Assembly (NCBI RefSeq): GCF_020099395.1
Contig: NZ_CP083590.1
Location: 1,240,001-1,304,000, forward strand
Direction: 5' to 3'
DNA length: 64,000 bases
Origin: Streptomyces mobaraensis
GTDB lineage: Bacteria > Actinomycetota > Actinomycetes > Streptomycetales > Streptomycetaceae
Made by a program: the position numbers and the translations under genes. Numbering within the stretch: position 1 is the stretch's first letter; each line of letters opens with the position of its first letter. The notes beneath the pieces were generated by a model. It searched no databases. It worked only from the letters and a program-made list of their open reading frames with translations, and was not told where the DNA came from. Below are positions 8,949-41,397 of this stretch, in pieces.

Positions 8949-10514
8949 ATGTCCGGCACGTCTGAAGTCTGGCATGTGCACACATTCGACGAGAGTTTCG
9001 GCGGAAGCGGACGGGAACGGCCGCGCGTCCTGGTACTGGGGGCCGGGGTGGCCGGGCTCACCACCGCCTACGAGCTGGAACGCCGCGGCTTCCACGTCGA
9101 GGTGATCGAGGGCGACACCCGTATCGGCGGACGCGTTTTCACCCACCGCTTCGGCACCGGACCGGACGCGCCGGCGGTGGAGCTGGGCGCCATGCGCATT
9201 CCGGCGCACCACCGCCTCACCCTCGAATACATCGACCGGATGGGGCTCACGGGAAAACTGCGCCGGTTCACCACGCTCCTCTCCGAGGAGAACGCCTTCC
9301 TGCGCGTTCCCTCGGGTTTCGTCCGGGTCAGGGACGCCTCCGGGCCGCTGTGCGCGACCTTCCGCGCCGAGCTCGCGCTGCGCGGCGCCGACCGCCGGTA
9401 CGCCGCCCCGACCATCGCCTTCGGCGCCTGGCTGACCGCCGTCGTCGACGCCACCGCCCCGCCCGAGCTGCGCGCGGCGCTCCGCGACGACCTGCACCGC
9501 CAGCTCCTCGACCTCGTCGCCCGCCTCGACCCGGCCCCCCACCTGCGCGGCCCCGCCCGCGACCGGATCGACCTGCACTCCCTGTTCTCCGCCCACCCGG
9601 AGATCCGCACCGGGTGCAGCGGGCGACTCAACAGCTTCCTGGACGACATCCTCACCGAGACCAGCCCGGCACTGCTCCGCCTGCACGGCGGCATGGACCA
9701 GCTGCCGCGCCGGCTCGCCGGCCGGCTCAAGGGCCGCCTCTCCTGCGGGCGGCGGGTCGTCGGCATCGACGTCCGGGACGACGGCGTGCTCGTGCGCGTC
9801 CGCGCCGGGGCGCGCACCACGGTGGAGCACGCCGACTTCGTCGTCTGCACCCTGCCCTTCCCGGCGCTCCGGCGGCTCGACCTGCGCGGCGTCGACGACG
9901 ACAAGCGCGCCGTGCTGGAGGACGTCGTCTACTGCCCGGCGACCAAGGTGGCCCTCCACTGCCGGGAGCCCTTCTGGCGGGAGGAGGGCATCCGGGGCGG
10001 CGCGTCGTTCACCGGGGGGCTGATACGGCAGACCTACTACCCGGCGGTGGACGACGCCGAGGAGGACACGGCGGACGGCCCGGCCGCGGGCAACGGCGCG
10101 GCGCTGCTCGCCAGTTACACGATCGGCGACGAGGCGGAGCGGCTCGGCCGGCTGCCGGCCCGCCGGCGGCACCGGCTCGTCCTCGACGAGCTCGCCGCCG
10201 CCCACCCCCGGCTGCGGCGGCCCGGCATGGTGCTGGGCTCGGCGAGCGCCGTCTGGGGGCTGTCGCGGTGGAGCGGCGGCTGCGCGACCCGCTGGGGCAG
10301 GTCGGCGGCCGAGTGCGAGATGGAACGGCTGCGCGCGGCCCGGCCGGCCGGCCGGCTGTTCTTCGCGGGCGAGCACTGCTCGACGGCGCCCGCCTGGATC
10401 GAGGGCGCCATCGAGTCCGCGCTGCACGCCGTCCACCAGGTCGTCCACTACGCGCCGCCGGTGCGCGTCCTGGGCGTCAACGGCCGCCGGGGGCGCGCGG
10501 GGGCCCTGCGGTGA
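8949..10514 (+). CDS. FAD-dependent L-amino-acid oxidase, RebO/StaO/VioA-like
   Basis: Flavin amine oxidase of 521 residues. In the rebeccamycin, staurosporine and violacein pathways the homologues oxidise L-tryptophan (or its chloro form) to the indole-3-pyruvate imine. Seen here: the dinucleotide-binding motif VLVLGAGVAGLTTAYELERRG near residue 28, RIGGRVFT, ELGAMRIP, and the C-terminal FAD motif LFFAGEHCSTAPAWIEGAIESAL. A GGGGGGAACC site precedes the ATG. Its TGA overlaps the GTG of the RebD-like gene (GTGA), so the two are coupled as in known bisindole clusters. The amine substrate is inferred from the partner gene; another aromatic amino acid is possible. Confidence 0.88.
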   Translation: MSGTSEVWHVHTFDESFGGSGRERPRVLVLGAGVAGLTTAYELERRGFHVEVIEGDTRIGGRVFTHRFGTGPDAPAVELGAMRIPAHHRLTLEYIDRMGLTGKLRRFTTLLSEENAFLRVPSGFVRVRDASGPLCATFRAELALRGADRRYAAPTIAFGAWLTAVVDATAPPELRAALRDDLHRQLLDLVARLDPAPHLRGPARDRIDLHSLFSAHPEIRTGCSGRLNSFLDDILTETSPALLRLHGGMDQLPRRLAGRLKGRLSCGRRVVGIDVRDDGVLVRVRAGARTTVEHADFVVCTLPFPALRRLDLRGVDDDKRAVLEDVVYCPATKVALHCREPFWREEGIRGGASFTGGLIRQTYYPAVDDAEEDTADGPAAGNGAALLASYTIGDEAERLGRLPARRRHRLVLDELAAAHPRLRRPGMVLGSASAVWGLSRWSGGCATRWGRSAAECEMERLRAARPAGRLFFAGEHCSTAPAWIEGAIESALHAVHQVVHYAPPVRVLGVNGRRGRAGALR

Positions 10515-13500
10515 GCGTCTTCGACCTGCCCCGGCTGCACTTCGCCGGCGTCGCCACCACCCGGCTGCCCACCGGGCCGCGCAACGGCCTGGTGGACGTG
10601 ACGGGTCCGCGCGCCCTCGTCGACGACGGGCCGGAGCCCGTTCCGTTCCCCGCCGACCGGCCGGCCGGCGAGTACCACGCCTGGCTGCGCCGCCGCGGCC
10701 CCCGCTACGACCGGCGCGGACGCCCCTGCCCGGACGGCGAGTTCAGCGTGGCCACGGGCTGGAACCTCGACGGGAACGGGCATTTCCTCTTCGACGCGCG
10801 CGTCACCGCCGTCCAAGGCCCGGACAGGCGGACGGCCACCGACGACCCGCTCGTCGGGCGCGCCGTGGACGTCTGGGGCCACTACAACCCGTACCTGCGC
10901 ACCACCGTCAACCGGGCCCGCGTCTTCGACCTCGATCCCGCGTCGCGGTGGACGACGGCCCTGATGACCGGCCGGTTCGGCGTCGGCCGGCTGGGGCGCT
11001 CGCACGATGACGGCTATCTGTTCACCGGGGGCGTCACCGGTTTCCAGCCGCCCCGCTGGGTGCAGTTCGGGCGGATCCTGGACGTCGGCGAGCACCTCCT
11101 CGGCGAGCAGTTGCGGTACGCCGCCGTGCACCAGTTCGTGGTCGTCCGCGAGGAGGCGGAGTGGCTGCCCGGCGCGGTCCGCTCCCCCGTCGCGGAGGCG
11201 CTGCGGGCGGCGGTCGCGGACGGCGGTGCGGACGGCCTCGTCGTCCGGTTCGCCCTGGACGGCATGAGCTCCCCCGTCGTCCCCGACGCCCCCAGCCACT
11301 GGCGCGTCCGGGGCACGGTAGCCCCTTGGTACGCCGACGAATTGCGCACCTATCCGGCGGGGCGGCTGCTGGAGCCGGTCGCCGGGAGCCCGTTGCACCA
11401 TCTCTCGGTGCGGCTGACGGACGACCTGGTGGTCCTGGACATGATCACCGCGGTGCCGGTCACGCACCGGGCGGCGGAGGCGGGCCCAGGCCCCCTGCAC
11501 GCGCTCGGGCCGGCTCTAGACCTGGGCGATCTGGAGCTGCGGACGGCGTCGGGGGCGCTCGTCGCCCGGGTGCCCGCCGGCGCGTACCCCTCGGACGAGA
11601 CGTCGGGGCTCGTCACCGTGGCCCGGGCCGCCGGCGCTCCGGACGCGGCGGACGAGCGGCTGTTCCTGACCCGGACGGGGCCCGGCGGGCGGCGGCGGAC
11701 GCTGCTGGCCGAGCGGGAGGCCGTCGTGCAGTCGGACGACGCGCTCGTGGTCCTCCACCACCGCGACCGCGCGCGCGGCGCCGACCACGCCGTCCGGGTG
11801 CGCCTGCGCTCGTTCGTCCGCGGGCGCCCGGCGCCCGTGGAGGTGCGCGTACGTCAGTACTACAACCCGCGTGCGCTGCCAGCCGACCGCGTGGCGGGCA
11901 CGCCGGGGGCGCGCTGCGCGGATGCTGTGGTGCTGGGGTTGCGGGCGGGGCGGGGCGAGGGGGCGGGCGCGGAACCGGGCGGGGAATCGGATGCCGGTCC
12001 GGGGGGCGGGTCGGGTGGCGCCCCGGGTGCCGGGTCAGGTGCCGGGCCCGGCAGAACGGACGGCAGCGCGGGCAGCGCGGGCAGCGCGGGCAGCGCGGGC
12101 AGCGCGGGCAGCGCGGGCAGCGCGGGCAGCGCGGGCAGCGCGGGCAGCGCGGGCAGCGCGCCGAACGACCCGGTGGGCGGAACGGACAGCGGACCGGACC
12201 GCCGGACCGGCAGAACGGTCGGCGCACCGAGCGCCGTACCGCACAGCCCCGTGGGCGGCGCGCCCCCGCCGGCCGGCCGAGCGCGCGGCGCGAGCCCCGC
12301 ACCGGCGTCCGCACCCGCACCTGCACCTGCACCCGCACCCGCACCCGCACCCGCACCCACGCCGTACGCCCCGGAGTGCACCCTCACCACCGACGCCCGA
12401 GGCCATGCCCACCTCCTCCTCCGCGGCGACCGCGCCGGCACCTGCCGCGTCCTGCTCTCGACCGGCCCCGCCGACGCCCCGGGCACCGACCCCCGCGCCC
12501 CCGGCTCCGCCTGGACCGCCTACGACGACGCGGACGCGCTCCGCTTCTGGGCGGGCGCCGGTTCGCTGGCCGTCCGCGTCCTGCCGGACGACTGGCACCT
12601 GGACGCGATCCCGCGCGAGGACGTGGACTTCGCCCTGCTCCACCGGGAGGTCTTCGCCTACTACGAGCAGGTCTCCACCTTCATGAAGTCCGAGGTCTTC
12701 AGCCTCGCCGACCGCTGCAAGGTCGAGACCTACGCCGAGCTCGCGTGGCAGATGTGCGACCCGCGCAACAAGGACCGCACGTACTACATGCCGCCCACCC
12801 GTGACCTCACCGACCCGAAGGCGCGGCTGCTCCTCGCCTACCTCCGCAACCAGCAGGCCAGGATCCGCCCGCCGCTCGCCGTCCCCGCGCCGCCGCCCGC
12901 GCCGCCGGCGATCACCACCCGGGGCCGGCTGTGGGCCGTCCTCAAGCAGGCGGCCACGCTCGAACTGGCGGTGATGCTCCAGTACTTGTACGCCGCGTTC
13001 TCCCTGCCCACGCACGGCGCGGGCCGCGTCCTCGTGCGGCGCGGGCTGTGGACCCCGCGCCAGTTGGAGCTCGTCTGCGGGCAGGGCGGGGCGACGCTCG
13101 ACGACGGTATCCGCGGCGCCCTGCTGACCGTCGCCCGCGAGGAGATGATCCACTTCCTGCTGGTCAACAACATCATCACGGCCATCGGCGAACCGTTCCA
13201 CGTTCCGGTGATCGACTTCGGCACGCTCAACGGCCGGCTCCCCGTCCCCCTGGACTTCGCCCTGGAAGGGCTGAGCATCGGCAGCGTCCAGCGGTACATC
13301 GCCGTCGAGCAGCCCGCCGGCCTCACGCCCGAACTGCGGCGGGAGGGCACCGGGACCGTCCCGCCCGTGCCGCGGGCCGCGTCCTGGGGGTCGATCAGCG
13401 AGCTGTACGCGGCCATCCGGGAGGGGCTGCGGCGCGTCCCGGACCTGTTCCTGGTGGAGAAGGGCCGCGGCGGCGGCGAACACCACCTCTTCCTCCGCGC

Positions 13501-14206
13501 GTCCGTCAACACCGCGCACCCGGACTACCAGCTGGAGGTCGACGACCTCGCGAGCGCGCTGTTCGCCGTCGACCTCATCACCGAGCAGGGCGAGGGCGGT
13601 TCCGGCGCCGCGCCCCCGCCGGAGACCTCGCACTTCGAGACGTTCCTGCGGATCGGCGAACTCCTCACCACCGAACGCACCCCCGGACCGCACGGCCGGC
13701 TGCTCCCCTGGGACCCCGCCTATCCCGTGCTGCGCAACCCCACCCTCGGCACCGGCGACGCGGCCAAGGATCCCGTCACCGACCCCGAGGCGCGGGCGGT
13801 CGCCCGGCTGTTCAACCAGGCGTACGAGCTGATGCTGCGGCTGATGGTCCAGCACTTCGGCGAGAGCGCCGACGGCAGCCTGCGCCGCTCCAAACTCATG
13901 AACGCCTCCATCGACGTGATGACGGGCATGATGCGCCCGCTGGCGGAACTGCTGGTCACCATGGACTCGGGCCGCCGCGGCCGGACGGCGGGGCCGACGT
14001 TCGAGCTGGAGGCCGCGCCCGAGCCCGTACCCCGTCCCGACGTCGCCCGCCGCGCCCTCGCCCTGCGCTTCGCCCACCTGGCCGCCGCGGCACGCGCCTG
14101 CCCCCGCATGCCGGAGCAGGTCGGCGACATGGCGGCGTTCTACGCCGACTTCTTCCGGGGCTTCCCAGGAGCGACGGATCCGAAGGGGAGGGATCGCGAA
14201 GGATGA
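10511..14206 (+). CDS. RebD/StaD/VioB-like imine-coupling enzyme (chromopyrrolic acid synthase family)
   Basis: Very large protein of 1231 residues; the starting MSVFDLPRLHFAGVATTRLPTGPRNG is characteristic of RebD/StaD. These enzymes couple two molecules of oxidised tryptophan into a bisindole (chromopyrrolic acid for RebD/StaD, the IPA imine dimer for VioB). The C-terminal third has a ferritin-like domain (LWAVLKQAATLELAVMLQYLYA, EEMIHFLLVNNIITAIGEPFH). RebD is about 1000 residues; the excess is mostly a linker at residues 480-620 with eleven GSA repeats and an alanine-proline run. Translationally coupled on both sides (GTGA, then ATGA). Confident family call; the exact product is open because the RebC partner is broken. 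Confidence 0.9.
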   Translation: MSVFDLPRLHFAGVATTRLPTGPRNGLVDVTGPRALVDDGPEPVPFPADRPAGEYHAWLRRRGPRYDRRGRPCPDGEFSVATGWNLDGNGHFLFDARVTAVQGPDRRTATDDPLVGRAVDVWGHYNPYLRTTVNRARVFDLDPASRWTTALMTGRFGVGRLGRSHDDGYLFTGGVTGFQPPRWVQFGRILDVGEHLLGEQLRYAAVHQFVVVREEAEWLPGAVRSPVAEALRAAVADGGADGLVVRFALDGMSSPVVPDAPSHWRVRGTVAPWYADELRTYPAGRLLEPVAGSPLHHLSVRLTDDLVVLDMITAVPVTHRAAEAGPGPLHALGPALDLGDLELRTASGALVARVPAGAYPSDETSGLVTVARAAGAPDAADERLFLTRTGPGGRRRTLLAEREAVVQSDDALVVLHHRDRARGADHAVRVRLRSFVRGRPAPVEVRVRQYYNPRALPADRVAGTPGARCADAVVLGLRAGRGEGAGAEPGGESDAGPGGGSGGAPGAGSGAGPGRTDGSAGSAGSAGSAGSAGSAGSAGSAGSAGSAGSAPNDPVGGTDSGPDRRTGRTVGAPSAVPHSPVGGAPPPAGRARGASPAPASAPAPAPAPAPAPAPAPTPYAPECTLTTDARGHAHLLLRGDRAGTCRVLLSTGPADAPGTDPRAPGSAWTAYDDADALRFWAGAGSLAVRVLPDDWHLDAIPREDVDFALLHREVFAYYEQVSTFMKSEVFSLADRCKVETYAELAWQMCDPRNKDRTYYMPPTRDLTDPKARLLLAYLRNQQARIRPPLAVPAPPPAPPAITTRGRLWAVLKQAATLELAVMLQYLYAAFSLPTHGAGRVLVRRGLWTPRQLELVCGQGGATLDDGIRGALLTVAREEMIHFLLVNNIITAIGEPFHVPVIDFGTLNGRLPVPLDFALEGLSIGSVQRYIAVEQPAGLTPELRREGTGTVPPVPRAASWGSISELYAAIREGLRRVPDLFLVEKGRGGGEHHLFLRASVNTAHPDYQLEVDDLASALFAVDLITEQGEGGSGAAPPPETSHFETFLRIGELLTTERTPGPHGRLLPWDPAYPVLRNPTLGTGDAAKDPVTDPEARAVARLFNQAYELMLRLMVQHFGESADGSLRRSKLMNASIDVMTGMMRPLAELLVTMDSGRRGRTAGPTFELEAAPEPVPRPDVARRALALRFAHLAAAARACPRMPEQVGDMAAFYADFFRGFPGATDPKGRDREG
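12062..12160 (+). repeat. 9-nt tandem repeat, eleven copies, encoding (GSA)n
   Basis: Eleven uninterrupted copies of GGCAGCGCG inside the RebD-like gene, giving residues about 518-550 as Gly-Ser-Ala repeats. The unit is a multiple of three, so the frame is kept. A second low-complexity run, codons for Ala-Pro, follows at about 12304-12360. Confidence 0.95.
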
Positions 14207-14568
14207 GCATCACACCCACCGACGGCGACGCGGACGAGGGCCGGGGCGCGCCTTTCGGCACCGACGTCCTGATCGTCGGAGCCGGCCCGGTCGGGCCGGC
14301 GCCGGCCCTGGATCTGGGACACCGGGGCGTCCGCTTCCTGCTCCTGGGCGCCTCCGACGGGCGGGTGGAGCACCCCAAGGTCGGTACGGTCGGGCCGCGT
14401 TCGATGGAGCTGTTCCGGCGCTGGGGCCTCGCGCACGCCATCCGGACGGCAGGCCGGCCCGGCGACCACCCGCTGGACGTGGCGTGGGTCACCCACCTGC
14501 CCCGCACCCAGAAGACCCCACCCGTATCCACCGGATCCACCGGACCCGCACCTCGGAGGCACCCATGA
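14203..14568 (+). pseudogene. RebC/StaC-like FAD monooxygenase, N-terminal remnant
   Basis: A 121-codon frame whose residues 20-95 read like the first 90 of the 530-residue RebC/StaC flavoprotein: DVLIVGAGPVG, HPKVGTVGPRSMELFRRWG, TAGRPGDHPLDVAWVT. After that it ends in an unrelated 25-residue proline/threonine tail. Two prolines (GPAPAL where GMALAL is usual) sit right after the FAD-binding glycines. The rest of the FAD domain, the GD motif and the C-terminal domain are absent. ATGA overlaps with both neighbours are intact, so the remnant may still be translated to couple the P450. It cannot work as a RebC; I read it as a gene with a large internal deletion. Confidence 0.85.
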
Positions 14569-15794
14569 CACCCCTCGGCCCCTTCCGCCTCTCCGATGTG
14601 CACATCCCCGATCCGTATCCGCTCTACGAGCGCTACCGCGAGGACGACCCCGTCCACCGGTCCGAGGAGGGCTGGTACCTCTTCCGGCACGCCGACGTCA
14701 CCGCCGTCCTGTCCGACCGCCGGTACGGGCGCGGCGGCCTGCCCGCGCCGCTGCCGGCCGGGTGCCCGCATCTGCGGCGGACGGCGTCCGACTGGATGGT
14801 GTTCATGGACCCGCCGCGGCACACCCGCGTCCGCGCGCTGGTCGCGAGGAGTTTCACGCCCCGCGTGGTCGAGCGGCTGCGCCCCCGCGTGGACGAGCTG
14901 GCGGGCCGGCTCGTCGCCGACCTGGCCGAGACGCTGGCCGAGGACGGGCGGGCCGATCTGGTGGACCGGTTCGCCGCGCCCTTCCCGATCCTGGTGATCA
15001 GCGAGCTGCTGGGGGTGCCGGCGGACGACCGGCCCTGGTTCCGGGCGCGCGCGGTCGGCCTCCAGCAGGCCACCAGCGCCCGCGCCGCCCGGCGGAGCGA
15101 CGCCTACCGGGTGGCGGACGCGGCGGCCCGCGAACTCGACGCGTACTTCCGCGCCGAGCTGTCCCGGCGCCGCGCCGCCGGGCCGACGGGACAAGGCGAC
15201 GAGGGGGACCTGATAGCGGCCATGCTGCGGGCGGCCGAGGAGGAGCCGCTGGGCGACGACGTCCTCGTCGGCACCTGCGTCCATCTGCTCACGGCCGGCC
15301 ACGAGACCACCACCAACCTCCTCTGCAAGGGCCTGCTCGCCCTACTCGACCACCCCTACCAGCTCGGACTGCTCGGCGAGCGGCCGGAGTTGCTGCCGGG
15401 GGCGGTGGAAGAGCTGGTCCGCTACGACGGCCCGGTGCAGCTCATCAGCCGCCGCGCGCACGAGGACGCCGAGATCGGCGGGCACCCCGTCCGGCGAGGC
15501 GACAAGGTGACCCTGGTCCTGGGCTCGGCCAACCGCGACCCCCGCCGCTTCCCGCACCCCGACCGGCTGGACATCCGCCGCGACGCCCGCCGCCACTGCG
15601 GCTTCGGGCTGGGCGCCCACTACTGCCTGGGCGCCCCGCTGGCGCGCGTGGAGGCGGAGACCGGTCTCCGCCGGCTGCTGACCGGACTGCCGGGGCTGCG
15701 GCTCGCGGTGGACGAGCCGGACGGCCCGGTGCGGTACGCGGACGACCTGGTGTTCCACGGGCCGTCGAGGATGGTGGTGCGCGGGGACCGCTGA
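14565..15794 (+). CDS. cytochrome P450, RebP/StaP-like candidate
   Basis: Bacterial class I P450 of 409 residues. Landmarks: HTRVRALVARSFTPR (C helix), LLTAGHETTTNLL (I helix oxygen-binding groove with the Thr), the ExxR in the K helix (AVEELVRYDG region gives the preceding acid), and the haem loop FGLGAHYCLGAPLAR with Cys354. Its position directly after RebO-, RebD- and RebC-like genes, in one coupled operon, makes the StaP/RebP role (aryl coupling and oxidative decarboxylation of chromopyrrolic acid) likely. A GGAGG ribosome site precedes the ATG, which overlaps the remnant's TGA. No ferredoxin gene is adjacent. Confidence 0.88.
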   Translation: MTPLGPFRLSDVHIPDPYPLYERYREDDPVHRSEEGWYLFRHADVTAVLSDRRYGRGGLPAPLPAGCPHLRRTASDWMVFMDPPRHTRVRALVARSFTPRVVERLRPRVDELAGRLVADLAETLAEDGRADLVDRFAAPFPILVISELLGVPADDRPWFRARAVGLQQATSARAARRSDAYRVADAAARELDAYFRAELSRRRAAGPTGQGDEGDLIAAMLRAAEEEPLGDDVLVGTCVHLLTAGHETTTNLLCKGLLALLDHPYQLGLLGERPELLPGAVEELVRYDGPVQLISRRAHEDAEIGGHPVRRGDKVTLVLGSANRDPRRFPHPDRLDIRRDARRHCGFGLGAHYCLGAPLARVEAETGLRRLLTGLPGLRLAVDEPDGPVRYADDLVFHGPSRMVVRGDR

Positions 15795-15916
15795 GGCACG
15801 TGTGCGAACGGACGCCACCGCTGAGGCACTTGCGTGAACCACCGTCACCGCTGAGGCACTCACACGTACCACGCCACCGCTGAGGCTCTTGGACGAACCA
15901 CGGTCACCGCGGATGC
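15788..15916. repeat. about 30-nt tandem repeat between convergent genes
   Basis: The core CCGCTGAGGC recurs at 15788, 15818, 15848 and 15877, with a degenerate copy at 15907 (period 29-30 nt). Each unit also contains a variant of CACTTGCGTGAACCACCGT. The first copy contains the P450 stop codon and the array fills the whole gap to the convergent hydroxylase gene. Confidence 0.85.
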
Positions 15917-15917
15917 C

Positions 15918-17462
15918 TCACACGAACCACCGGTCCAGATAGGCCGCCGCCGCGCGCCGGTCGCCGGCGGCCGCGCGGAGGCCCACGTACCCGTCGGGGC
16001 GGACGAGGAGGAGCGTCCCGGCGGGCACCGCACCGGCCGCGTCGGCCTCGGAGCGGACCCGGAACACCTCGACGTCCGCGCCGTACCGCTCCGGCAGCCC
16101 CGCGGGCTGCCCGCCGCTCCCGCCGCCCTCGAAGACCAGCAGCGTCCACCTCCGGTAGGAGAGCAGCTCGTGGAGGCGCCGCCGGCCGCCGCCGTGGACA
16201 CGGACGGGAAGGTCCGGCAGCCGGTCGCCGGCGCGCAGCGGCCCCCGGCCGCCGGTGTCGGCGGAGAGGGCGCTGGGCCGGTGGTGCCGGGTGAAGTCGC
16301 TCATCATCAGCCGCGTCCGCCGTTCGGCCCACCGGCTGCCGATGACCACCGGCGCGGCGAGGCTCAGGGCCGCGAACGTCAGGGGGCCGGGCGGGAGTTC
16401 CGTGACGTTGTGGCGCATGTCGCGCATCACGCCGGCGGCCGTGCGGCGCTGTTCGGCGGAGTACGTGTCGAGCAACTCCTCGCGGCAGCGCCCCCGGTGG
16501 ACGGCCGCGAGCTTCCAGCCCAGGTTGTGGGCCGCGCACAGCCCGATGTTGAGGCCGTGACCGCCGATGGGCGCCCACAGGTGGGCGCTGTCGCCGGCGA
16601 GCAGGGCGGCGCCGTGGCGGAGCCGCGTGGCGAGGCGGTCGTGGAAGCGGGCCCGGTTGATCCACGGCGGATCCGTCGGCACCAGCCGGACGTCGGGGTC
16701 GCCGGTGGCCCGGGCGACGAGCGTCCGCATCTCCTCGACGTCGGGCGGTTCCTCGCTGTGCGGCTCGGGGTCGTCGCGAAAGGCGAAAAACCGGTGGATT
16801 CCACCGGGCAGCGGGCTGGCGATGAGCGAGACGCCCCGCTGGACGAAGACCTGGGTGAGGTCGTGGTCCCGCGGAAAGCGCCAGTCGGGCTTGGCGTTGA
16901 TCTGCACGGCCTGGAGGCCGGCGCGGCGTTCGCCCTCGAAGGGAATGCCCAGGGTCTTGCGCACGATGCTGTGCGCCCCTTCGCACCCCACGATCCACCG
17001 GCACGCGACCGTACGCCCCCGCCCGTCCGGCCCCCGCAGATCGGCCTCGGCCCCGTCCGCCCCGACCCGCACCGCCACGGCCTCGGTGCCCCAACGGACA
17101 TCGTCCCCCAGAACCCGCAGCCGACCGCGGAGCAGCCGCTCGGTGGCGTCCTGCTCGATGTCGAGCGGACAGGGGAAGGCCGTCCCCGGTACGGCCATGT
17201 CGTACTCCCCGCGCAGCCGCCCCCGCACCCGGAACGCCGCGCGCCGCACCACCACCCCCGCCCCGACCAGGTCCTCGGCACACCCGAGGTCCCGCAGCGC
17301 CTCAAGGGCCCGCTGCCAGATGACACATGCCCGGGCCTCGTTCTTCGTGCTCGGTTCCTTCTCGACGACGAGCACGTCCAGCCCGTACTGCCGCAGCGCG
17401 ATCGCCAGGGCCAGCCCGGTGGGCCCGGCACCGACGACCACGACGTCCCGAACCTCCACCAC
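15918..17462 (-). CDS. FAD-dependent aromatic hydroxylase (group A flavoprotein monooxygenase)
   Basis: NAD(P)H-dependent FAD monooxygenase of about 514 residues of the type that hydroxylates aromatic polyketides. It has the N-terminal DVVVVGAGPTGLALAIALRQYG, CEGAHSIVRKTLGI in the place of the DGxxSxVR motif, and GDSAHLWAPIGGHGLNIG, followed by a thioredoxin-like C-terminal domain. I preferred the GTG at 17462 with GGGAGGG upstream; an ATG at 17501 would add 13 residues. It is not a replacement for the truncated RebC by sequence motifs I can see, but it is the nearest intact flavin hydroxylase and could serve either the bisindole or the polyketide pathway. Confidence 0.87.
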   Translation of the reverse strand: MVEVRDVVVVGAGPTGLALAIALRQYGLDVLVVEKEPSTKNEARACVIWQRALEALRDLGCAEDLVGAGVVVRRAAFRVRGRLRGEYDMAVPGTAFPCPLDIEQDATERLLRGRLRVLGDDVRWGTEAVAVRVGADGAEADLRGPDGRGRTVACRWIVGCEGAHSIVRKTLGIPFEGERRAGLQAVQINAKPDWRFPRDHDLTQVFVQRGVSLIASPLPGGIHRFFAFRDDPEPHSEEPPDVEEMRTLVARATGDPDVRLVPTDPPWINRARFHDRLATRLRHGAALLAGDSAHLWAPIGGHGLNIGLCAAHNLGWKLAAVHRGRCREELLDTYSAEQRRTAAGVMRDMRHNVTELPPGPLTFAALSLAAPVVIGSRWAERRTRLMMSDFTRHHRPSALSADTGGRGPLRAGDRLPDLPVRVHGGGRRRLHELLSYRRWTLLVFEGGGSGGQPAGLPERYGADVEVFRVRSEADAAGAVPAGTLLLVRPDGYVGLRAAAGDRRAAAAYLDRWFV

Positions 17463-17679
17463 GCAGCCCGCCCTCCCCGACGCCACCGCTTTGCCCCCCA
17501 TCGTGCGGGAGCCCCCACCCCGCCTTCAATGGCGCCTCTCTCCCGATTCTCCCGTTCCTCCCGAAAAATCCTCCCGGAACATCCGGAACCGTCCCCATCC
17601 GTCGGGGCGACGCGACAGCGCAAAGGCCCCGCCCGCCCTCCGCGGGAGGGCGAACGGGGCCTCGGTCGTCGGACGGCGG

Positions 17680-18109: not shown

Positions 18110-18961
18110 TCACACGGCGGGCGGCAGCGCGCCGAGCCGGGTGCGCTGGAGGAGGTCCTGCACGGTCCGCGGGCCACCGCCGGCGGCCGTGCCCTGGCCG
18201 AGGATCTCCCGCTGGAGCCGCTGGAGGTCCGGCGAGGGCTCCAGGCCCAGGTCGTCGGCCATGGACCGGCGCAGCCGGTGGAAGACCTCCAGGGCCTGCG
18301 GGCGGCAGCCCGAGCGCTGCAGGGCGATCATGTAGTACGCGTGCAGGTGCTCGTCGAAGGGGTGCTGGAGCACCAGGGCCGCCAGTTCACTGAGCACCTC
18401 CTCGTGGCGGCCGATCCGCAGCAGGGTCTCGATCCGCAGCCCCCGCGCGGCCTGCCGCGACTGCTCCAGCCTCGACACCTCCGCCTGGAGCGGCAGCCCG
18501 CACTCCACGTCGACGAGCGCCGTGCCCTGCCAGAGGTCGTCGGCCCGCTGCAGATGGCGGACGGCGGCGTCCTGGTCGCCGGCGCGCAGGGCGAGCCGGC
18601 CGGCCGCCTCCAGGCGCCGGAACTCGGCGAGGTCGAAGAAGCACGACTCCGTGTGGAAGACGTACCCCATGTTGCCGGTCCTCAGCAGCTCGCGGCTCAC
18701 GACGGTCTGCGGCAGGGAGAAGTTGACCGAAATGCTGCGCCGGATGTTGAGGATGTACGTCTGGAGGGCGGTGAGCGCGGTCTTGGGCGGGCTGTCGTGC
18801 CAGAGCTCCTCGACCAGCCGGGAGACCGGGACGACGCGCGAGTGGTTCATCAGCAGGAGCGCCAGGACCTTGCGTTCCTTGGGGGCCGTCGGGGTCGCGT
18901 ACGCGCGGTCGGCGTACAGCGATAACGAGCCGAGAACGTCGATCCCTATCTGGACTCCCAT
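18110..18961 (-). CDS. SARP family transcriptional activator (first copy)
   Basis: Streptomyces antibiotic regulatory protein of 283 residues: an N-terminal OmpR-type winged helix (IDVLGSLSLYADRA, PKERKVLALLLMNHSRVVPVSRLVEELW, QTYILNIRRSI) followed by a bacterial transcriptional activation domain (DLAEFRRLEAAGRLALRAGD, HPFDEHLHAYYMIALQRSGCRPQALEVFHRLR). It lacks the ATPase and TPR parts of AfsR, as small pathway-specific SARPs do. It lies between the bisindole-type operon and the polyketide genes; the TTGAG repeats of the latter are its plausible targets together with the second SARP at 28534. Confidence 0.93.
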   Translation of the reverse strand: MGVQIGIDVLGSLSLYADRAYATPTAPKERKVLALLLMNHSRVVPVSRLVEELWHDSPPKTALTALQTYILNIRRSISVNFSLPQTVVSRELLRTGNMGYVFHTESCFFDLAEFRRLEAAGRLALRAGDQDAAVRHLQRADDLWQGTALVDVECGLPLQAEVSRLEQSRQAARGLRIETLLRIGRHEEVLSELAALVLQHPFDEHLHAYYMIALQRSGCRPQALEVFHRLRRSMADDLGLEPSPDLQRLQREILGQGTAAGGGPRTVQDLLQRTRLGALPPAV

Positions 18962-21881: not shown

Positions 21882-23111
21882 TCAGCCGGCGTCCGCCTCC
21901 GCGCGGCGTACCACGACGGCCGCGTTGAAGCCGCCCTTGCCGCGCGCGAGCACGAGCGCGGCGTCCACCGGGCGGTGCCGGGGCTGCCCGAGGACGAGGT
22001 CGATGCCGTACGCCGGGGGGACGTCGGCGGTGTGCGCGGTGGCCGGGACGACGCCGTCGCGGATCGCCAGGAGGGCGGCCACCAGGTCGAGCGGGCCGCC
22101 GCCGGCGAAGAGGCGGCCGGTGAGCGCCTTGGGGGCGGTCACGGGGACGGCTCCCGGCCCGAAGACCTCCCGGATGGCGGCGGCCTCGGCGGCGTCGTCC
22201 GCCGGCAGGCCGGCCGCGTCGGCGAAGACGGCTCCGATGGCGGAGGGCTCCAGTCCCGCGTCGGCGAGGGCGAGTTCGGCCGCCCGGCGCAGCCCCGGCG
22301 GCCGGTCCAGGCCGGGTGCCGGGTCGAAGGTCGCGGCGTAGCCGGCGATCTCGCCGTACGCGCGGCGGCCGCGCGTCCGTGCCGCGTCGGCGTTCTCGGC
22401 GATGAGGATCGCGCCGCCCTCGCCGGGCACGTACCCGGCCGCATCGGCGTCGAACGGCAGGTAGGCGCGGCGCGGGTCGGCCGTCCGGCTGACCCTGCCG
22501 GAGGACAGGTGGGAGGCCCACCCCCAGGGGTCGAAGGCGGAGTCGACGCCACCGCACACCACGAGCGGGGTGCCGCGCCGGACCGCCCCGCGGGCGTTGC
22601 CGACGGCGTCCAGACCGCCGGCCTGTTCCCCGACGACGACGCTGCCGGGCCCGCGCATGCCGTGCCGGATGGAGATCTGGCCGGTGTTGACGGCGTAGAA
22701 CCAGGCGAAGGACTCGTAGACGCTGACCGACGACGGGCCCTCGGACCACAGTTTGCGGAACTCCCGGTGGGTGAACTCGAAGCCTCCGGTGGCGTTCGAG
22801 GTCATGACGCCCATGTCGAACTCGGGGAGTTCCGCGGGGTCCGCGCCGGCGTCGGCCAGGGCGCTCGCGGCGGCGGCCAGCGCGAACCGCGTGGAGACGT
22901 CGGTCTGCGGCAGGAGCCGCTTCGGCAGGTGCTCCAGCGGATCGAAATCGCCGATCAGGCCGGCGAGCCGGGAAGGGTACCGGTCCGCGTCGAAGCGCCG
23001 GATCTCGCCGATGCCGGAGCGTCCCTCCAGGACCGCCGCCCAGTAGTCGTCGACGGTCGTCCCGTTGGGGGCCATCACGCCGATTCCGGTGATCACGACG
23101 TTGTCGGTCAC
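21882..23111 (-). CDS. ketosynthase chain-length factor (KS-beta, CLF)
   Basis: Thiolase-fold partner of KS, 409 residues. The active-site Cys is replaced by Gln163 ([13 protein letters not shown]), the defining CLF feature, and it forms the heterodimer that sets chain length. The GTG start overlaps the KS stop (GTGA), as in most aromatic clusters, which keeps the subunits in equal amounts. The chain length cannot be inferred by eye; residues lining the tunnel would need a structure-based alignment. Confidence 0.95.
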
Positions 23112-24376
23112 GCGCGCGCTCCTTCCGTACGGCGCAGCACCATCGCGCTCTGGAACCCGCCGAATCCGCTGCCGACGCTCAGCACCGTGTCCACGCGGAG
23201 TTCGCGCGCGGTCAGTGGCACGTAGTCGAGGTCGCATTCGGGGTCGGGTTCGTGGAGGTTGGCGGTCGGCGGCACCACGCCCTGGTCGATGGCGAGGGCG
23301 CAGGCGGCGATCTCGATGGAGCCGATGGCGCCGAGCGAGTGGCCGACCATGGATTTGATGGAGCTGATCGGCACGCGGTGGGCGTGTGCGCCGAGGCTCC
23401 GCTTGAACGCGGCGGTCTCGTGCCGGTCGTTCTGTTTCGTTCCCGAGCCGTGGGCGTTGACGTAGTCGACCGCGGACGGGTCGATCCGGGACTCGTCGAG
23501 GGCCACCCTGATCGCCTCGGCCATCTCCCGGCCGTCGGCCTTGAGACCGGTCATGTGGTAGGCGTTGAGCCGGGTCGCGTACCCCGTGATCTCGCCGTAG
23601 ACGTGCGCGTGCCGGCGGCGCGCGTGCTCGTACTCCTCCAGGACGAACACGGCCGCGCCCTCGGCGAGCACGAAGCCGTTGCGGGTGCGGTCGAAGGGGC
23701 GGGACGCCTGCTCGGGACGGTCGTTCCGGGGCGTCGTGGCCTTGATCGCGTCGAAGCAGGCGACGACGATGGGGGTGACGGGGGTGTCGGAGGCCCCGGC
23801 GACCATCACGTCCGCGCTGCCGTCCTGGATGAGCCGGCAGGCGTGGCCGAGCGCGTCGAGCCCCGAGGTGCAGCCGTCGGAGACCATCGCCACGGGCCCC
23901 TCGGCCCCCACCTCCCAGGCCACTTCGGCGGCCGCCGCGCCCGGGGTGAGGTAGTCGAACATGTGCGGTGAGAGGTAGGAGGGGTCCACGTGCCAGTCCC
24001 GGCCGCCGTCGGAGAGCACGAGGTACTCGCGCTCCAGGCTGGTCGCGGCGGCGACGGCGCTGCCCAGGCTGACGCCGGTGCGGTGCGGGTCCAGTTCCTC
24101 GAACTCGACACCGCTGTCGGCGACCGCCTCCCGCGCGCAGACCACGGCGAACTGCGCGGACCGGTCCATGCGCCGGATCTGCCGGGGCGTCAGCCCTTCG
24201 GCCCGCGGGTCGAAGTCGCACTCACCGGCCACCTGTGAGCGGTAGGGGCTCGGGTCGAAGAACGAGATGCGGCGGGTCGCGGTACGGCCGGAGGTCAGCA
24301 GTTCCCAGAACTGCTTCTTCCCCGTGCCACCGGGCGCCCTTACCCCGATTCCCGTGATGACGACGCGTCGTGTCAT
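23108..24376 (-). CDS. type II polyketide ketosynthase alpha (KS)
   Basis: Condensing subunit of 422 residues with the full catalytic set: Cys169 in [11 protein letters not shown], His in [14 protein letters not shown] and His in [14 protein letters not shown]. With CLF and ACP it makes the minimal PKS. The start ATG is preceded by GGGGTAGGGG. No ketoreductase gene is found anywhere in the cluster, so the chain is probably not C9-reduced. Confidence 0.96.
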
Positions 24377-26060: not shown

Positions 26061-26777
26061 TCAGGCGGTGCTGACGACGTCGTGGAACGGGAGCCGGGGC
26101 AGCCGGGGATGGCGCGGCTCCCCGCGCGGGCGGCCGATGGCGACGGCGGTGACGACCTCCCGCCGCCCGTCGCCGAAGAACGCCTTGTTGACGCCGTCGG
26201 CGTCGTAGCCCACGATCGGGCCGGCGGCCAGCCCGGCGGCCCGGACGCCGATGATGAAGTACGCCACCTGTAAAGCGGTGTTGAACAGGGCGGACTCCCG
26301 GCGGACGGCGGGGTCGGCGAACAGCTCCCCGGCCCGCGGGCGGTGCGGGAAGAGGTACGGGAGCGTCTCGGGGAAGTCGAGGTCGGCGGCGAGCAGGGCG
26401 ACCAGCGGCGCCGAGGCCGCCTTCGGGCGGTTGCCCGGGTGCAGATGGACCGCCAGCTCCCGGCGGGCCTCGGGCGACCGCAGCAGGACGACGCGCATCG
26501 GCTGCTGGTTCATCGAGGTGGGCGCGTACTTGACCAGGTCGTGGATGGCCCGTACCTGGTCGTCGCCGACGGGTTCGGACGTGAACTCCGTACAGGTGCG
26601 CGCCTCGCGGAAGAGCAGGTCCTGGGCGGCGGGGTCCAGCCGCAGGAGGGGGGCCGGCCCGCCGGCCTCCGCGCGGACCGTCCCGGTACCCTCCGCGCGG
26701 AACGTCCCGGTACCCTCCGCGCGGAACGTCCCGGCCCCCTCTGTACGGACCGTCCCGGCCCGCTCCGCGCGGGTCAC
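26061..26777 (-). CDS. nitroreductase family (malonic semialdehyde reductase-like) flavoprotein
   Basis: FMN-dependent nitroreductase-fold protein of 238 residues. The core from about residue 45 has LLFREARTCTEFTSEPV, KYAPTSMNQQPMRVVLL, FNTALQVAYFIIGVRAAGLAAGPIVGYD and VVTAVAIGRP, like RutE/HadB-type enzymes. The first 40 residues are four near-repeats of EGTGTFRA made by a 24-nt DNA repeat. The GTG overlaps the cyclase stop codon. It might reduce an intermediate or supply reduced flavin to the hydroxylase at 33031; neither is shown. Confidence 0.85.
   Translation of the reverse strand: MTRAERAGTVRTEGAGTFRAEGTGTFRAEGTGTVRAEAGGPAPLLRLDPAAQDLLFREARTCTEFTSEPVGDDQVRAIHDLVKYAPTSMNQQPMRVVLLRSPEARRELAVHLHPGNRPKAASAPLVALLAADLDFPETLPYLFPHRPRAGELFADPAVRRESALFNTALQVAYFIIGVRAAGLAAGPIVGYDADGVNKAFFGDGRREVVTAVAIGRPRGEPRHPRLPRLPFHDVVSTA
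26666..26777 (-). repeat. 24-nt tandem repeat, about 4.6 copies
   Basis: Units start at 26666, 26690, 26714, 26738 and 26762 with the core CCTCCGCGCGGAACGTCCCG. They encode eight-residue repeats at the N-terminus of the nitroreductase and reach its start codon. Confidence 0.92.
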
Positions 26778-27526
26778 GCGTCCTCGACGAGCGCGACCAC
26801 CCGGGTCCAGCCCGCTCCCGCGCCCTCGACCGCCACGGGGAAGCACGAGACGGTGAACCCGGTGGCGCCCGGCAGGTCGCCGAGGTGGGCGAGCTTCTCC
26901 AGCTGGAGGTACTCGGCCGTGCGGCCGTGGATGTGCGCCGGCCACAGGTGGGCGTTGTCCCCGGTGCGGCGGTAGTCCTCGATCATGCGGTGCATGGGCC
27001 GGTCGAGGCCCCACGCGTCGATGCCGATGACACGTACCCCGCGCCCGACAAGGAACGCGGTGGCCTCGCCGGTCAGCCCCGGGTACTCCCGCAGGTAGTC
27101 GGCCGAGCCCCACAGCCGGTCGGCGCCCGTCCACAGCAACGCGATGTCGCCGGGGGCGAGTTCGTGGCCGGCCTCCTTCAGCGCGGCCTCCACGTGGGCG
27201 GTCGTGATGCCCTCGCCCGCCGGCACGTGGCGGACGTCCAGCCGTACGCCCGGTCCGAGGCACCACTCCAGCGGCACCCGGTCGATGCTCTTGGCCGGGA
27301 CGCCCCCGCTGAGCGGGCCGTAGTGCAGCGGGGCGTCCATGTGGGTGCCGGTGTGCGTGGTCAGCGTGACGGTCTCGTTGGAGATGGCCATGCCGTCGGG
27401 GAAGTCCTCGGGCGACAGGCCGAGGACCGTGGCCCCGGTCGCGTGGTCGAGCGTGTCGACGGTGACCGGGGTGGCCTCGCTGGGGGTGGACCGCGTGGTC
27501 ACGCTCAGGTCGACGAGGCGCGTCAT
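26774..27526 (-). CDS. cyclase family protein (kynurenine formamidase-like metal hydrolase fold)
   Basis: Protein of 250 residues from the cyclase family named after aromatic polyketide gene products, structurally related to KynB. The metal-binding motif HTGTHMDAPLHYG is intact (residues about 57-69), followed by ALLWTGADRLWG and GIDAWGLDRP. Likely takes part in ring closure or hydrolytic release of the polyketide. ATG overlaps the stop of the Dabb-START gene (ATGA), so the two cyclase-type proteins are made together. Confidence 0.9.
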   Translation of the reverse strand: MTRLVDLSVTTRSTPSEATPVTVDTLDHATGATVLGLSPEDFPDGMAISNETVTLTTHTGTHMDAPLHYGPLSGGVPAKSIDRVPLEWCLGPGVRLDVRHVPAGEGITTAHVEAALKEAGHELAPGDIALLWTGADRLWGSADYLREYPGLTGEATAFLVGRGVRVIGIDAWGLDRPMHRMIEDYRRTGDNAHLWPAHIHGRTAEYLQLEKLAHLGDLPGATGFTVSCFPVAVEGAGAGWTRVVALVEDA

Positions 27527-28347
27527 GCCGCGGCCGCCCCGGCCACGCGGCGCTCGGCCTCGTCCCGCACCGCGCCGAGGTCGTCGACGCTGTTGCGCTC
27601 GACGCCGCCGCACAGCAGCGCGTCGGCCTCCTCGTAGGTGAACTTGCCGGCGACCTTGCCGCCGACGGGCTCCTTGGGCTTGAAGTCGTGGGTGATGACG
27701 AGCTGCGTCCGGGTCTCCGTGAGCGGGAACGCCCGCCACTCGCCGCCCATGTGGCCGATGAGCGGGGCGAGTTCGAGCTGACGGTAGGCGATCACGTGCC
27801 GCTTGTGGTCGATGTCGCGGCGCGAGACCCACGACTGGAGCTCGCCGTTGACGTCCACGACGAGCCGGACGATCTGGTGCTCCGGCGACTCCTCGACGAT
27901 CTTCGCCTCCCGGGTGGGCGGGAAGATACGGGCGTAGCCCTCGACGTCGACCAGGACGTCCCAGACCACGTCGACGGGGGCGTCGACCGTGACGGTGTGC
28001 TCGGTGTGTCGCATCGGATGCCTTCCGGTGAGTGTCAGCGGGCGGTGGTTGGCGTAGGCGGCCTCGTACGAGATCCTCGACCGCCAGCCGGCCAGGAACT
28101 CGGCCACGTGCGGGAGTTCGGAGAACGTCCGCAGGGTTTCGAGGTCCCGGGCGGCGTACTGCGCGATGGCGGTGCCCGTCATCCCGCGCGAACGGGCGTC
28201 CACGGGGAGCCACTGGTGCGGTTCCCAGCCGAATCCCTCGATGTGGCCGGAATCCAGCAGCAATTCACCGAGTCCGTCGAAGAATTCCCGCTGCTCGGAT
28301 TCGGTGACCGAGTCGGCGAACCGGTAGATCAGGGTATGCAGAATCAA
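27523..28347 (-). CDS. fused Dabb-START polyketide aromatase/cyclase
   Basis: Two-domain protein of 274 residues. Residues 1-100 form a Dabb (dimeric alpha-beta barrel) domain, beginning LILHTLIYRFADSVTESEQ and ending YEAAYANHRPLT, the fold of olivetolic acid cyclase. Residues 105-250 are a START/Bet v 1-like polyketide aromatase/cyclase (HTEHTVTVDAPVDVVWDVLVDVEGYARIFPP in pieces, GGEWRAFPLTETRTQLVITHDF). A TTG start is chosen because GAGGGAG lies six bases before it and it aligns with the start of the free Dabb protein at 35948. The fusion suggests two successive ring closures on one polypeptide. First gene of the minus operon, with a candidate SARP box upstream. Confidence 0.88.
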   Translation of the reverse strand: MILHTLIYRFADSVTESEQREFFDGLGELLLDSGHIEGFGWEPHQWLPVDARSRGMTGTAIAQYAARDLETLRTFSELPHVAEFLAGWRSRISYEAAYANHRPLTLTGRHPMRHTEHTVTVDAPVDVVWDVLVDVEGYARIFPPTREAKIVEESPEHQIVRLVVDVNGELQSWVSRRDIDHKRHVIAYRQLELAPLIGHMGGEWRAFPLTETRTQLVITHDFKPKEPVGGKVAGKFTYEEADALLCGGVERNSVDDLGAVRDEAERRVAGAAAA

Positions 28348-28430
28348 CGGTGACTCCCTCTGCGGCGAACGGGCCGGAAGCGCCCGGGACGGGCCGGCGG
28401 AACCATGCACGGCCATCGTGGGAAGCGGGG

Positions 28431-31373: not shown

Positions 31374-32984
31374 TCAGACGGGATCCCCCGGCCCGTTGGG
31401 CACCGTGGGGAGGACCGGCAGCCGCACGTCCCGCGGGTCCCTCATCAGCGTGCCGGGGTCGATGCCCAGGTCCTCCAGGACCGCCCGGGCGGCGTTGCGC
31501 CCGGGCCAGCCGCTCACCCCGCCGCCGGTGTGGGTGCACGACCCGGTCTGGTACAGCGCGGGGACGGGCATCCGGTAGGCGCTCCAGCCGGGGACGGGCC
31601 GGTCCGTGCCGAGCTGTCCCAGGCTCATCTCGCCGCCCATGTAACCGCCCTCGGCGAAGTGCCTGTTCAGGGCGGCGAGGTCCACGGGGGTGTGAACGGA
31701 GCGCGCCAGCTCGTCGCCCGGCGCGTATCCCTCGACGTGGCGCGCGTACACGGCGAGCAGCCGTTCCGCGTACCGTTCCTTCTCCGCCTCCCACCGCGCC
31801 GGGTCCCCGTTCAGGCGGTAGGGGGCGTAGGTGAACAGCCGGACGGAGGCGAGCCCCGGGGGCGTCCGGCCGGGGTCGACGAGCGACGGCGCGAGGGCGA
31901 CCATCATGCGCTCGTCCCCGGACAGGGTGCCCGCCGCGATGTCCGCCCACTGGGCGGCGAGCCCGCTCGCGCTGCCGAAGGTCGCGGTGACGGCGCGCAG
32001 CGGTCCGTCCCCGGAGACCAGCGCCGGTGCCCGGCGGAGGGCGAGGTGCACCTGGAACACCGATCCGCCGTTGCGCCAGTGGCGCAGCGCGTCGAACGCG
32101 GCCGGGAGGCGGACGTCCGGCCCGAGCAGGCCGGCCAGCTGAGTGATGTGCGCTCCCGACACCACGGCCCGGCCGGCCTGGAAGCGTTCGCCGTCGGCCG
32201 TGGTCACCGCCGTGGCCCGGCCGTTCTCCACGGCGATCCGCTCCACCCGGCGTCCGCACAGGACCCGGCCGCCGTGGGCCTGGACGGTCGCGGCCAGGGC
32301 GCGGGGCAGGGCGGCGGATCCGCCGAGGGGGACGGCTCCGGTCATCCGGGTCAGCAGGTACGCGAACTCGGCCGGGACGAAGCCCGTTCCCGGGCGGCTC
32401 AGGTCGCCGATGGCCGAGGCGAAGCCGAGGAGCAGGGCGCGGGTGCGGTCGTCCTGGAAGCTCTCGCGGACCACGCCGTACCCGTCGCGGGCCGCGAGGG
32501 CGTCCAGCCGGGCGGCGGCCGGGGAGTTCCCGCGCACGGTGCCGGGCGGCGCCGCGGACCGCCGCAGGCGTTCGGCGAGGAGTGGTTCGTAGTCGGCGAG
32601 CAGCCGCCGGAAGGCGTCGGCGTCCGCCGGGCTGTACCGCCCGATGGCCTCGGCCGTGGCCTCGGCGTCCCGTCCGACGGCCAGCGTGCCGGTGCCGTCG
32701 CAGGACACCAGGGCGGGGGACGGGGTGACGTACCGCAGCCCGTGTTCCTCCAGGCCCAGTTCACCGCCGCCGACGGCCGGGTTGAGCTGGGCGTACATAT
32801 GGAAGGTGGACGCGATGTCGTCGTGGAAGCCGGGCAGGGTCAGCTCGTGGGTGGCGGTACCGCCGCCGGGTTCCGGCCGTTCCTCCAGCACGGTCACGGA
32901 GAGGCCGGCGCGGGTCAGATAGGCGGCGGTGATCAGGGTGTTGTGGCCGGCGCCGATCACCACGGCGTCGCTGCGTACGGTCAT
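31374..32984 (-). CDS. FAD-dependent oxidoreductase of the CrtI/PYROXD2 type
   Basis: Phytoene-desaturase-like flavoprotein of 536 residues. N-terminal FAD site DAVVIGAGHNTLITAAYLTRAGLSVTVLEE, long middle substrate domain, and a C-terminal FAD motif GSCTHTGGGVSGWPGRNAARAVLEDLG. The family covers carotenoid desaturases and many uncharacterised dehydrogenases; no carotenoid genes are nearby, so a dehydrogenation of a polyketide intermediate is more plausible. It is the last gene of a minus-strand operon starting at 34565. Confidence 0.85.
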   Translation of the reverse strand: MTVRSDAVVIGAGHNTLITAAYLTRAGLSVTVLEERPEPGGGTATHELTLPGFHDDIASTFHMYAQLNPAVGGGELGLEEHGLRYVTPSPALVSCDGTGTLAVGRDAEATAEAIGRYSPADADAFRRLLADYEPLLAERLRRSAAPPGTVRGNSPAAARLDALAARDGYGVVRESFQDDRTRALLLGFASAIGDLSRPGTGFVPAEFAYLLTRMTGAVPLGGSAALPRALAATVQAHGGRVLCGRRVERIAVENGRATAVTTADGERFQAGRAVVSGAHITQLAGLLGPDVRLPAAFDALRHWRNGGSVFQVHLALRRAPALVSGDGPLRAVTATFGSASGLAAQWADIAAGTLSGDERMMVALAPSLVDPGRTPPGLASVRLFTYAPYRLNGDPARWEAEKERYAERLLAVYARHVEGYAPGDELARSVHTPVDLAALNRHFAEGGYMGGEMSLGQLGTDRPVPGWSAYRMPVPALYQTGSCTHTGGGVSGWPGRNAARAVLEDLGIDPGTLMRDPRDVRLPVLPTVPNGPGDPV

Positions 32985-40495: not shown

Positions 40496-41397
40496 CCGCC
40501 GCTCTCTGCCTGGGGACATACCGCGTGCGTGCCGTCAGTCAGGCGGCACGCACCGCCCTGGCCGCCGGTAGCCTCTGGGTGGACACGGCACCCAACTACG
40601 CCCGTGGTCGGGCACATGAGGAACTGCGCCCGGTTCTCGGGGAGTACCCGACCGTGCGGGTAGCCACGAAGACGGGGTTCTTCACGGAGAAGCAAGGCGG
40701 CATCGCCCTGGCCGAGGGCGTGCTCACCCGGGAAGAGGCGGCCGGTAGGCACAGCCTTGAGCGACGCTTCGTCCGCTGGCAGACGGAGCGGTCGTTGGCC
40801 GCGCTCGGGCGCGTGGATCTGGTGTTCGTCCACAACCCCGAGCACCACGGGCACAGCATTGACCATGCCGCTCTGCACGGGCGTGTGCGGGAAGCCTTCA
40901 CGGCGCTGGAGGAGTTCGCTCATGCGGGCAGGATCGGCGGGTACGGCGTCGCCACCTGGTCGGGCCTGACCTCCGGAGCGCTCAGCGTCCCTGAGTTGCT
41001 CGCGCTCGCCCGGCAAGCGGTTGGTTCCGCCGAGCACCACTTCACCGGCTTGCAGATCCCCGTCAGCCTGATCATGGATGCCCCGATCACACAAGCCCTG
41101 AACGGCGGCGGACCACTGGTACAGGCGAAGGACGCCGGGCTGATCACGTTCGGATCAGCGCCCCTGCACGGCGGCGAACTCCTCGACGCCATGACACCCG
41201 AACTGGTGAACCTCATCCGCCCCGGCCTGTCGGCCGCAGCCGCTGCCCTGCTGGCCGCTGGCTCGTGCCCCGGCCTCGATGTCGTCCTCACCTCCGCGAG
41301 CACCCGCGAACACTGGGACGATGTGGCCAAGGCTCTGGCTGCGCCGCTGACGGCCCAGGAACTCAGGAGGGTGACGGATGAACTCGCCGGTGAATGA
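40492..41397 (+). CDS. aldo/keto reductase
   Basis: NADPH-dependent TIM-barrel reductase of 301 residues. Tetrad residues can be placed: Asp and Tyr in WVDTAPNYARG, Lys in VATKTGFF and His in LVFVHNPEHHG. The cofactor-end motif is loose (LDVVLTSASTREHWDD). GTG start overlaps the oxygenase stop, and its 3' end overlaps the kinase gene by 20 bases, so the three are one transcript. It might reduce a carbonyl made by the oxygenase. Confidence 0.88.
   Translation: MTAALCLGTYRVRAVSQAARTALAAGSLWVDTAPNYARGRAHEELRPVLGEYPTVRVATKTGFFTEKQGGIALAEGVLTREEAAGRHSLERRFVRWQTERSLAALGRVDLVFVHNPEHHGHSIDHAALHGRVREAFTALEEFAHAGRIGGYGVATWSGLTSGALSVPELLALARQAVGSAEHHFTGLQIPVSLIMDAPITQALNGGGPLVQAKDAGLITFGSAPLHGGELLDAMTPELVNLIRPGLSAAAAALLAAGSCPGLDVVLTSASTREHWDDVAKALAAPLTAQELRRVTDELAGE

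Follow-up and report, generated by a model that had tools for sequence, protein, structure and literature searches.

A RebC/StaC-like gene reduced to a 5′ remnant in a bisindole cluster of Streptomyces mobaraensis

The window, a stretch of 64,000 nucleotides from Streptomyces mobaraensis, carries a compact bisindole operon with an adjacent hydroxylase gene (Table 1). We abbreviate the RebO-like, RebD-like and RebC/StaC-like genes as O, D and C, the StaP/RebP-like P450 as P and the EspX-like hydroxylase as X. The original prediction held O, D and P to be intact and coupled by overlaps, and both points stand: the coordinates hold, with GTGA joining O to D, and ATGA joining D to the rebC remnant and the remnant to the P450 gene. 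The O product scores 179 bits with the Pfam family Amino_oxidase, and its best PDB matches are L-amino acid oxidases; a preference for tryptophan is predicted. The D product resembles the VioB/RebD family over its length, has O and P as neighbours and includes a Ferritin-like domain. Since its 792 bits with the VioB model fall under that equivalog's own cut-off of 1250, it is, judged by its sequence, a member of the VioB/RebD family but not VioB itself, and a PDB search found no relative of it among solved structures. Its linker is expanded by an in-frame Gly-Ser-Ala (GSA) repeat, encoded at 12062-12160 by a 9-bp unit (GGCAGCGCG) that recurs eleven times without a mismatch. The P450 is assigned as StaP/RebP-like by its intact heme-cysteine loop and by its closest structure, 2z3t ('Cytochrome P450', 374 bits; next match 241 bits), which we take to be that of StaP.

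Table 1. Features of the bisindole locus and of the region that follows it in the window
Feature	Coordinates	Strand	Remarks
RebO-like flavin L-amino-acid (tryptophan) oxidase (O)	8949..10514	+	521 aa, intact
RebD/StaD/VioB-like chromopyrrolic acid synthase (D)	10511..14206	+	1231 aa, GTG start, intact
rebC/staC-like 5′ remnant	14203..14493	+	97 codons; L32P, L34P, W85R relative to sister L015
Remnant-frame tail	14494..14568	+	from repeat-rich rebC-rebP spacer; GGAGG 14555-14559; TGA overlaps rebP start
StaP/RebP-like cytochrome P450 (P)	14565..15794	+	409 aa, intact, heme loop FGLGAHYCLG
Tandem repeats, about 30 bp, between P450 and X	15787..15935	.	GC-rich
EspX-like FAD aromatic hydroxylase (X)	15918..17501	-	527 aa, intact; FAD_binding_3 241 bits
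SARP-type regulator	18110-18961	-	family match
Ketosynthase	23108-24376	-	family match
Nitroreductase	26061-27266	-	family match
Cyclase	27523-28416	-	family match
Amine oxidase	31374-32984	-	family match
O-methyltransferase	34756-35832	+	family match
Aldo/keto reductase	40153-41397	+	family match

Between D and P, the remnant frame (14203-14568) comprises 121 codons, which encode 97 RebC-homologous residues and a 24-residue tail derived from the spacer. In the PDB it is matched best by 4eip ('Putative FAD-monooxygenase', E 2.9e-33), with 2r0c (RebC, E 5.7e-33) next; these matches span residues 15-119, but are good just over about 15-98. RebC/StaC proteins of full length run to about 530-560 aa and include a C-terminal domain; this product has 121 aa, and its homology to RebC ends at residue 97. 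The FAD motif GAGPVG is kept, but two prolines come after it at positions that in relatives hold L or M (the first) and L (the second), the site reading GAGPVGPAPALDLG in the window and GAGPVGLALALDLR in the sister cluster L015. The earlier description of about 90 recognisable RebC residues, with two prolines past the FAD motif, is thus borne out by the PDB matches and by the sister comparison.

The sister cluster is itself, as judged from near-identical proteins of that name, from S. mobaraensis: its RebC is 99% identical to P0149 and its X almost identical to P0029, both S. mobaraensis-named proteins. At the same site, L015 has a full 542-aa RebC, then a spacer (L015 5989-6399) rich in 15-, 17-, 45- and 90-bp repeats, then rebP. 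DNA identity between the window and L015 is 92% up to 14493, breaks there and resumes at 14537, and window positions 14494-14568 align locally, with small gaps, with the end of the L015 spacer. The distance from rebC start to rebP start is 362 bp in the window versus 2,085 bp in L015, hence 1,723 bp fewer, and both the GGAGG 5′ of rebP and the rebP start are unchanged. With the gene complete at this position in the sister, and DNA identity at 92% to the break, the remnant is not a chance match, and it is close to certain that the window's rebC lost most of its length through one deletion of about 1.7 kb. The same comparison revises the reading of the final ATGA as an intact link into the P450. 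The overlap is real, but rebC of L015 stops about 0.45 kb 5′ of rebP, and the TGA of the window's overlap is present in L015 in another frame; we therefore dropped the idea of an old rebC-rebP coupling and regard the ATGA at 14565 as a by-product of a fused frame that happens to end there. Short GC-rich tandem repeats are found after the P450 gene in the window (15787-15935) and before it in the sister (L015 5989-6399); such repeats around the P450 are possible deletion hot spots.

Between the window and L015, dN/dS is 0.80 for the 97 codons of the remnant, and 0.23, 0.24, 0.21 and 0.51 for O, D, P and X, respectively. Over residues 19-97, 49 positions are invariant in the 12 intact RebCs of the clade defined below. 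The window has two private changes at these positions, L34P and W85R; when each intact RebC was left out in turn (49-50 positions), eight showed no private change and four showed one. W85R is unique among 49 sequences (the window, L015 and loci with a RebC match more than 50% identical and longer than 480 residues), W85 being invariant in the other 48. Substitutions were also polarised by branch, with S. huiliensis and I05A-00742 as references (p values are one-sided Fisher, not corrected). The remnant has 10 nonsynonymous and 7 synonymous changes on the window branch, against 56 and 99 in O+D+P (p 0.06), and the same stretch has 5 and 1 on the sister branch (p 0.05); as the sister branch leans the same way here, this test is weak alone. 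For X, we counted 32 nonsynonymous and 20 synonymous changes on the window branch, against the same 56 and 99 (p 0.0012), and 24 and 22 on the sister branch (p 0.11). The excess of amino-acid change in X on the window branch, together with its dN/dS of 0.51, fits relaxed constraint, and so decay. Since the window branch is short, the intactness of O, D and P says little on selection since the deletion.

Of 295 genomes of the genus, 14 (the window's own counted) gave a close P450 in a first search, and a scan with a RebD alignment (A1, 13 members) kept 80 loci out of 91 confirmed. The cluster summary omitted RebO and RebP matches below 38% identity and any match below 90 bits; twelve proteobacterial or myxobacterial loci (L095-L106), which had RebD alone in that summary, were not used further. 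In a tree of O+D+P with 29 rows (20 clade rows and 9 chosen outgroup rows from other loci), 20 clusters formed one clade, consisting of the window, L015, L027-L042, L044 and L050; the supports come from a quick tree, with some forks open. Two further loci look near the clade in RebD identity but are incomplete: the contig of L043 stops directly behind RebD, and in L088 RebD is truncated and RebO fragmented. Neither entered the count or the tree. The window's relatives are, we assume, largely verticillate Streptomyces. All 20 clusters have a RebO match directly 5′ of RebD, partial in L050. RebC, in turn, lies within the operon of 12 clusters, the sister among them, survives as a remnant in the window, and is missing between D and P from the other seven (L029, L030, L040, L041, L042, L044 and L050).

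We then consider the genomes of these seven. A whole-genome search, made on drafts of unstated completeness and not taking in L053 (a locus outside the clade), found no RebC in five; four have no match at E 1e-60, and the sole match in the L029 genome is 39% identical, hardly a RebC. The genomes of L041 and L042 have a RebC elsewhere, 65% and 68% identical to S. mobaraensis RebC, beside another X. This split arrangement, with RebC and X far from O-D-P, is that of S. griseocarneus 132 and S. olivoreticuli (L112 10845-14399, L113 3561-7062). Mapped on the tree, the 20 clusters require a minimum of four switches between presence and absence of in-operon RebC. This count cannot separate gain from loss, but loss or relocation is what the remnant and the RebCs seen in other clusters suggest. 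RebC thus appears to have been lost or moved several times in the clade, a pattern not noticed earlier. X was found in six of seven draft genomes searched for it. For S. flavidovirens (L040), the searches, at their thresholds, recovered no RebC and no X, and in S. lilacinus (L050) X is a shortened, or broken, frame. Short RebCs with an apparent frameshift just past AAGWPG occur in S. griseocarneus and Streptomyces sp. UNOC14_S4 (P0009 and P0014), and may be further RebC lesions or sequencing errors.

One pair of clusters without RebC bears signs of function. L029 and L030 have no RebC, their RebD genes end in an ATGA that starts rebP, and their genomes contain no RebC-like match above 39% identity. 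For this pair, dN/dS is 0.27 in O, 0.20 in D (600 C-terminal codons), 0.19 in P and 0.19 in X, within or near the range of 0.16-0.36 given by the same genes in three RebC-containing pairs. The L050/L030 comparison, again without in-operon RebC, gives 0.31, 0.22, 0.31 and 0.36 for O, D, P and X, and L040/L041 gives 0.36, 0.21 and 0.27 for O, D and P, L040 having no X. The L029/L030 pair therefore looks functional by dN/dS and, because its values in the P450 and X are about 0.2, suggests that the pathway can persist without RebC. A working RebC-less pathway at the window is likely but unproven.

With the L015 RebC as query, no second RebC was found in the window's own genome, which is 99.9% complete. 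The search returned 15 matches at E up to 1e-10, remnant included; besides the remnant, the top match by E-value has 39% identity, and the others fall at 34-43%, apart from a piece of 78 residues at 59%. By comparison, the in-operon RebCs of the clade are at least 62% identical to this query. The suggestion that the oxidase at 15918 (X) may replace RebC did not survive: X is closer to polyketide hydroxylases (173 bits) than to RebC (81 bits), which rules it out by homology, and an X homologue is present within the fetched stretch beside an intact RebC in 10 of the 12 RebC-containing clade clusters, and elsewhere in the genome in the other two. X is 46% and 42% identical to two EspX-like-named proteins and is accordingly named here as a predicted hydroxylase. 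An attempt to link X copy number to RebC loss failed, RebC-containing clusters having 0, 1 or 2 X genes in the fetched stretch.

PMC10851217 counts O, D and P as genes preserved in every indolocarbazole cluster, and describes StaP alone as giving K252c, 7-hydroxy-K252c and arcyriaflavin A, and RebC/StaC as funnelling the reactive product to arcyriaflavin A or K252c. S. cinnamoneus NBRC 13823 is a described producer of BE-13793C together with arcyriaflavins E and A (PMC9113425, PMC12159101); L035, from S. cinnamoneus JCM 4633 (identity with NBRC 13823 not assumed), has O-D-C-P and two X genes. BE-13793C, an arcyriaflavin with two hydroxyl groups, was originally discovered in a Streptoverticillium; its clusters, including bec of Streptomyces sp. 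MA37, are reported with O-D-C-P genes, no sugar or halogenase gene and, for bec, no tryptophan hydroxylase gene within or near the cluster (PMC7024260). The window differs from this type in having no RebC, and most of the clade has X at or near the P450. None of the 12 window flanking genes tested matches a glycosyltransferase, halogenase or methyltransferase family. The erdasporine (esp) cluster, reportedly O-D-P-X without RebC, has the enzyme set left in the window once RebC is lost, and an X of the kind compared above; by contrast, RebC loss at the window is recent and on another branch. The two EspX-like-named proteins share 60-68% identity with the X proteins of L048, L051, L073, L079, L087 and L089, none of which has RebC at the locus. 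Since the L073 and L089 genomes have RebC elsewhere, and RebC-containing clusters such as L054 also carry an X 49-56% identical to EspX-like proteins, X does not mark RebC loss. The reductasporine cluster (redODPEMT) also lacks RebC, but there the imine reductase RedE captures the P450 product (PMC10784701). Like the rebeccamycin and staurosporine clusters, the window has homologues of O, D and P, and it keeps RebC up to residue 97, but RebC/StaC is otherwise gone and no sugar gene is among the flanking genes tested. We also considered the cladoniamide type, whose ClaX1, a flavin oxygenase of 553 aa, is presumed to work on a scaffold resembling arcyriaflavin (PMC3158105). RebC-less bisindole clusters are thus already known; in the literature covered, which took in little subscription material, we found no report of RebC loss in this clade.

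We favour, at a probability of roughly 0.6, recent loss of RebC from a hydroxy-arcyriaflavin cluster of the BE-13793C type, whose products would now be mixed or altered in oxidation state. The ancestor would have been a compact RebO-RebD-RebC-RebP cluster with an EspX-like hydroxylase, probably making hydroxylated arcyriaflavins such as BE-13793C. The deletion of about 1.7 kb, from rebC codon 97 into the minisatellite spacer 5′ of rebP, would have removed most of RebC and retained the last spacer bases, with the likely rebP ribosome site. RebO and RebD would still make chromopyrrolic acid and RebP the indolocarbazole core, which, reactive and without RebC, would fall into K252c, 7-hydroxy-K252c and arcyriaflavin A; X, which we infer to be a ring hydroxylase, would hydroxylate part of the product. 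The strain would thereby have arrived at the O-D-P-X gene set also found in other lineages. Of the original prediction, the loss of RebC from an otherwise intact bisindole operon stands, a changed product or early decay stay options, and the substitute at 15918 falls away. That the EspX-like hydroxylase takes the raw P450 product directly, making RebC dispensable in the clade, is possible, although we lean against it. If that were true, losing RebC would be a recurrent way of shifting the oxidation state of the product, one that is tolerated or even favoured; the window would be a step just past the deletion, and the S. abikoensis-type arrangement, with RebD and RebP joined by ATGA, X kept and no RebC found, would be the end state.

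The main rival is early decay: the whole pathway would be decaying, with the rebC deletion its earliest lesion to become fixed, and the survival of O, D, P and X would reflect only how little time has elapsed. The raised nonsynonymous share of X on the window branch and the little sign of constraint in the remnant (dN/dS 0.80) agree with this, as do S. flavidovirens and S. lilacinus, which indicate that erosion happens in the clade. However, O, D, P and X are without stop or frameshift, the likely rebP ribosome site is retained, and O+D+P is no more nonsynonymous on the window branch (56 nonsynonymous, 99 synonymous) than on the sister branch (80 and 115), so that we hold decay to be unlikely. 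An assembly or sequencing artefact, in which a full-length rebC collapsed at GC-rich repeats, could draw on the repeat-rich sister spacer and on the truncated P0009 and P0014, frameshifted at nearly one site and maybe sequencing errors, but is very improbable: L34P and W85R are private changes at positions invariant in the 12 intact clade members, no long homology or long repeat spans the junction, the identical remnant protein is found on four contigs (which may be copies of one assembly), and the locus is inside a 7.64-Mb contig. The least probable account is a RebC encoded elsewhere and acting in trans. The split arrangement of S. olivoreticuli and S. griseocarneus 132, which keep RebC and a second X together far from the operon, offers a precedent, but the low identities of the non-remnant matches in a genome 99.9% complete led us to reject it here.

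RebC and StaC decide between imide and lactam outcomes for indolocarbazoles, and a clade with repeated RebC loss or relocation, one scar still visible, would be a natural series for pathway life without a quality-control enzyme. The locus would be a natural example of product change in a drug-like pathway, not a new kind of system. The adjacent X is also a candidate for the ring hydroxylation left unassigned in the bec study (PMC7024260). The genes 5′ of the cluster are conserved at many clade loci and are ordinary (pyrophosphatase, SsgA, endonuclease V). On the other side, about 24.5 kb (window 18070-42500) is not present between the same flanks in S. mobaraensis L015, and this region carries an aromatic-polyketide-like gene set (Table 1).
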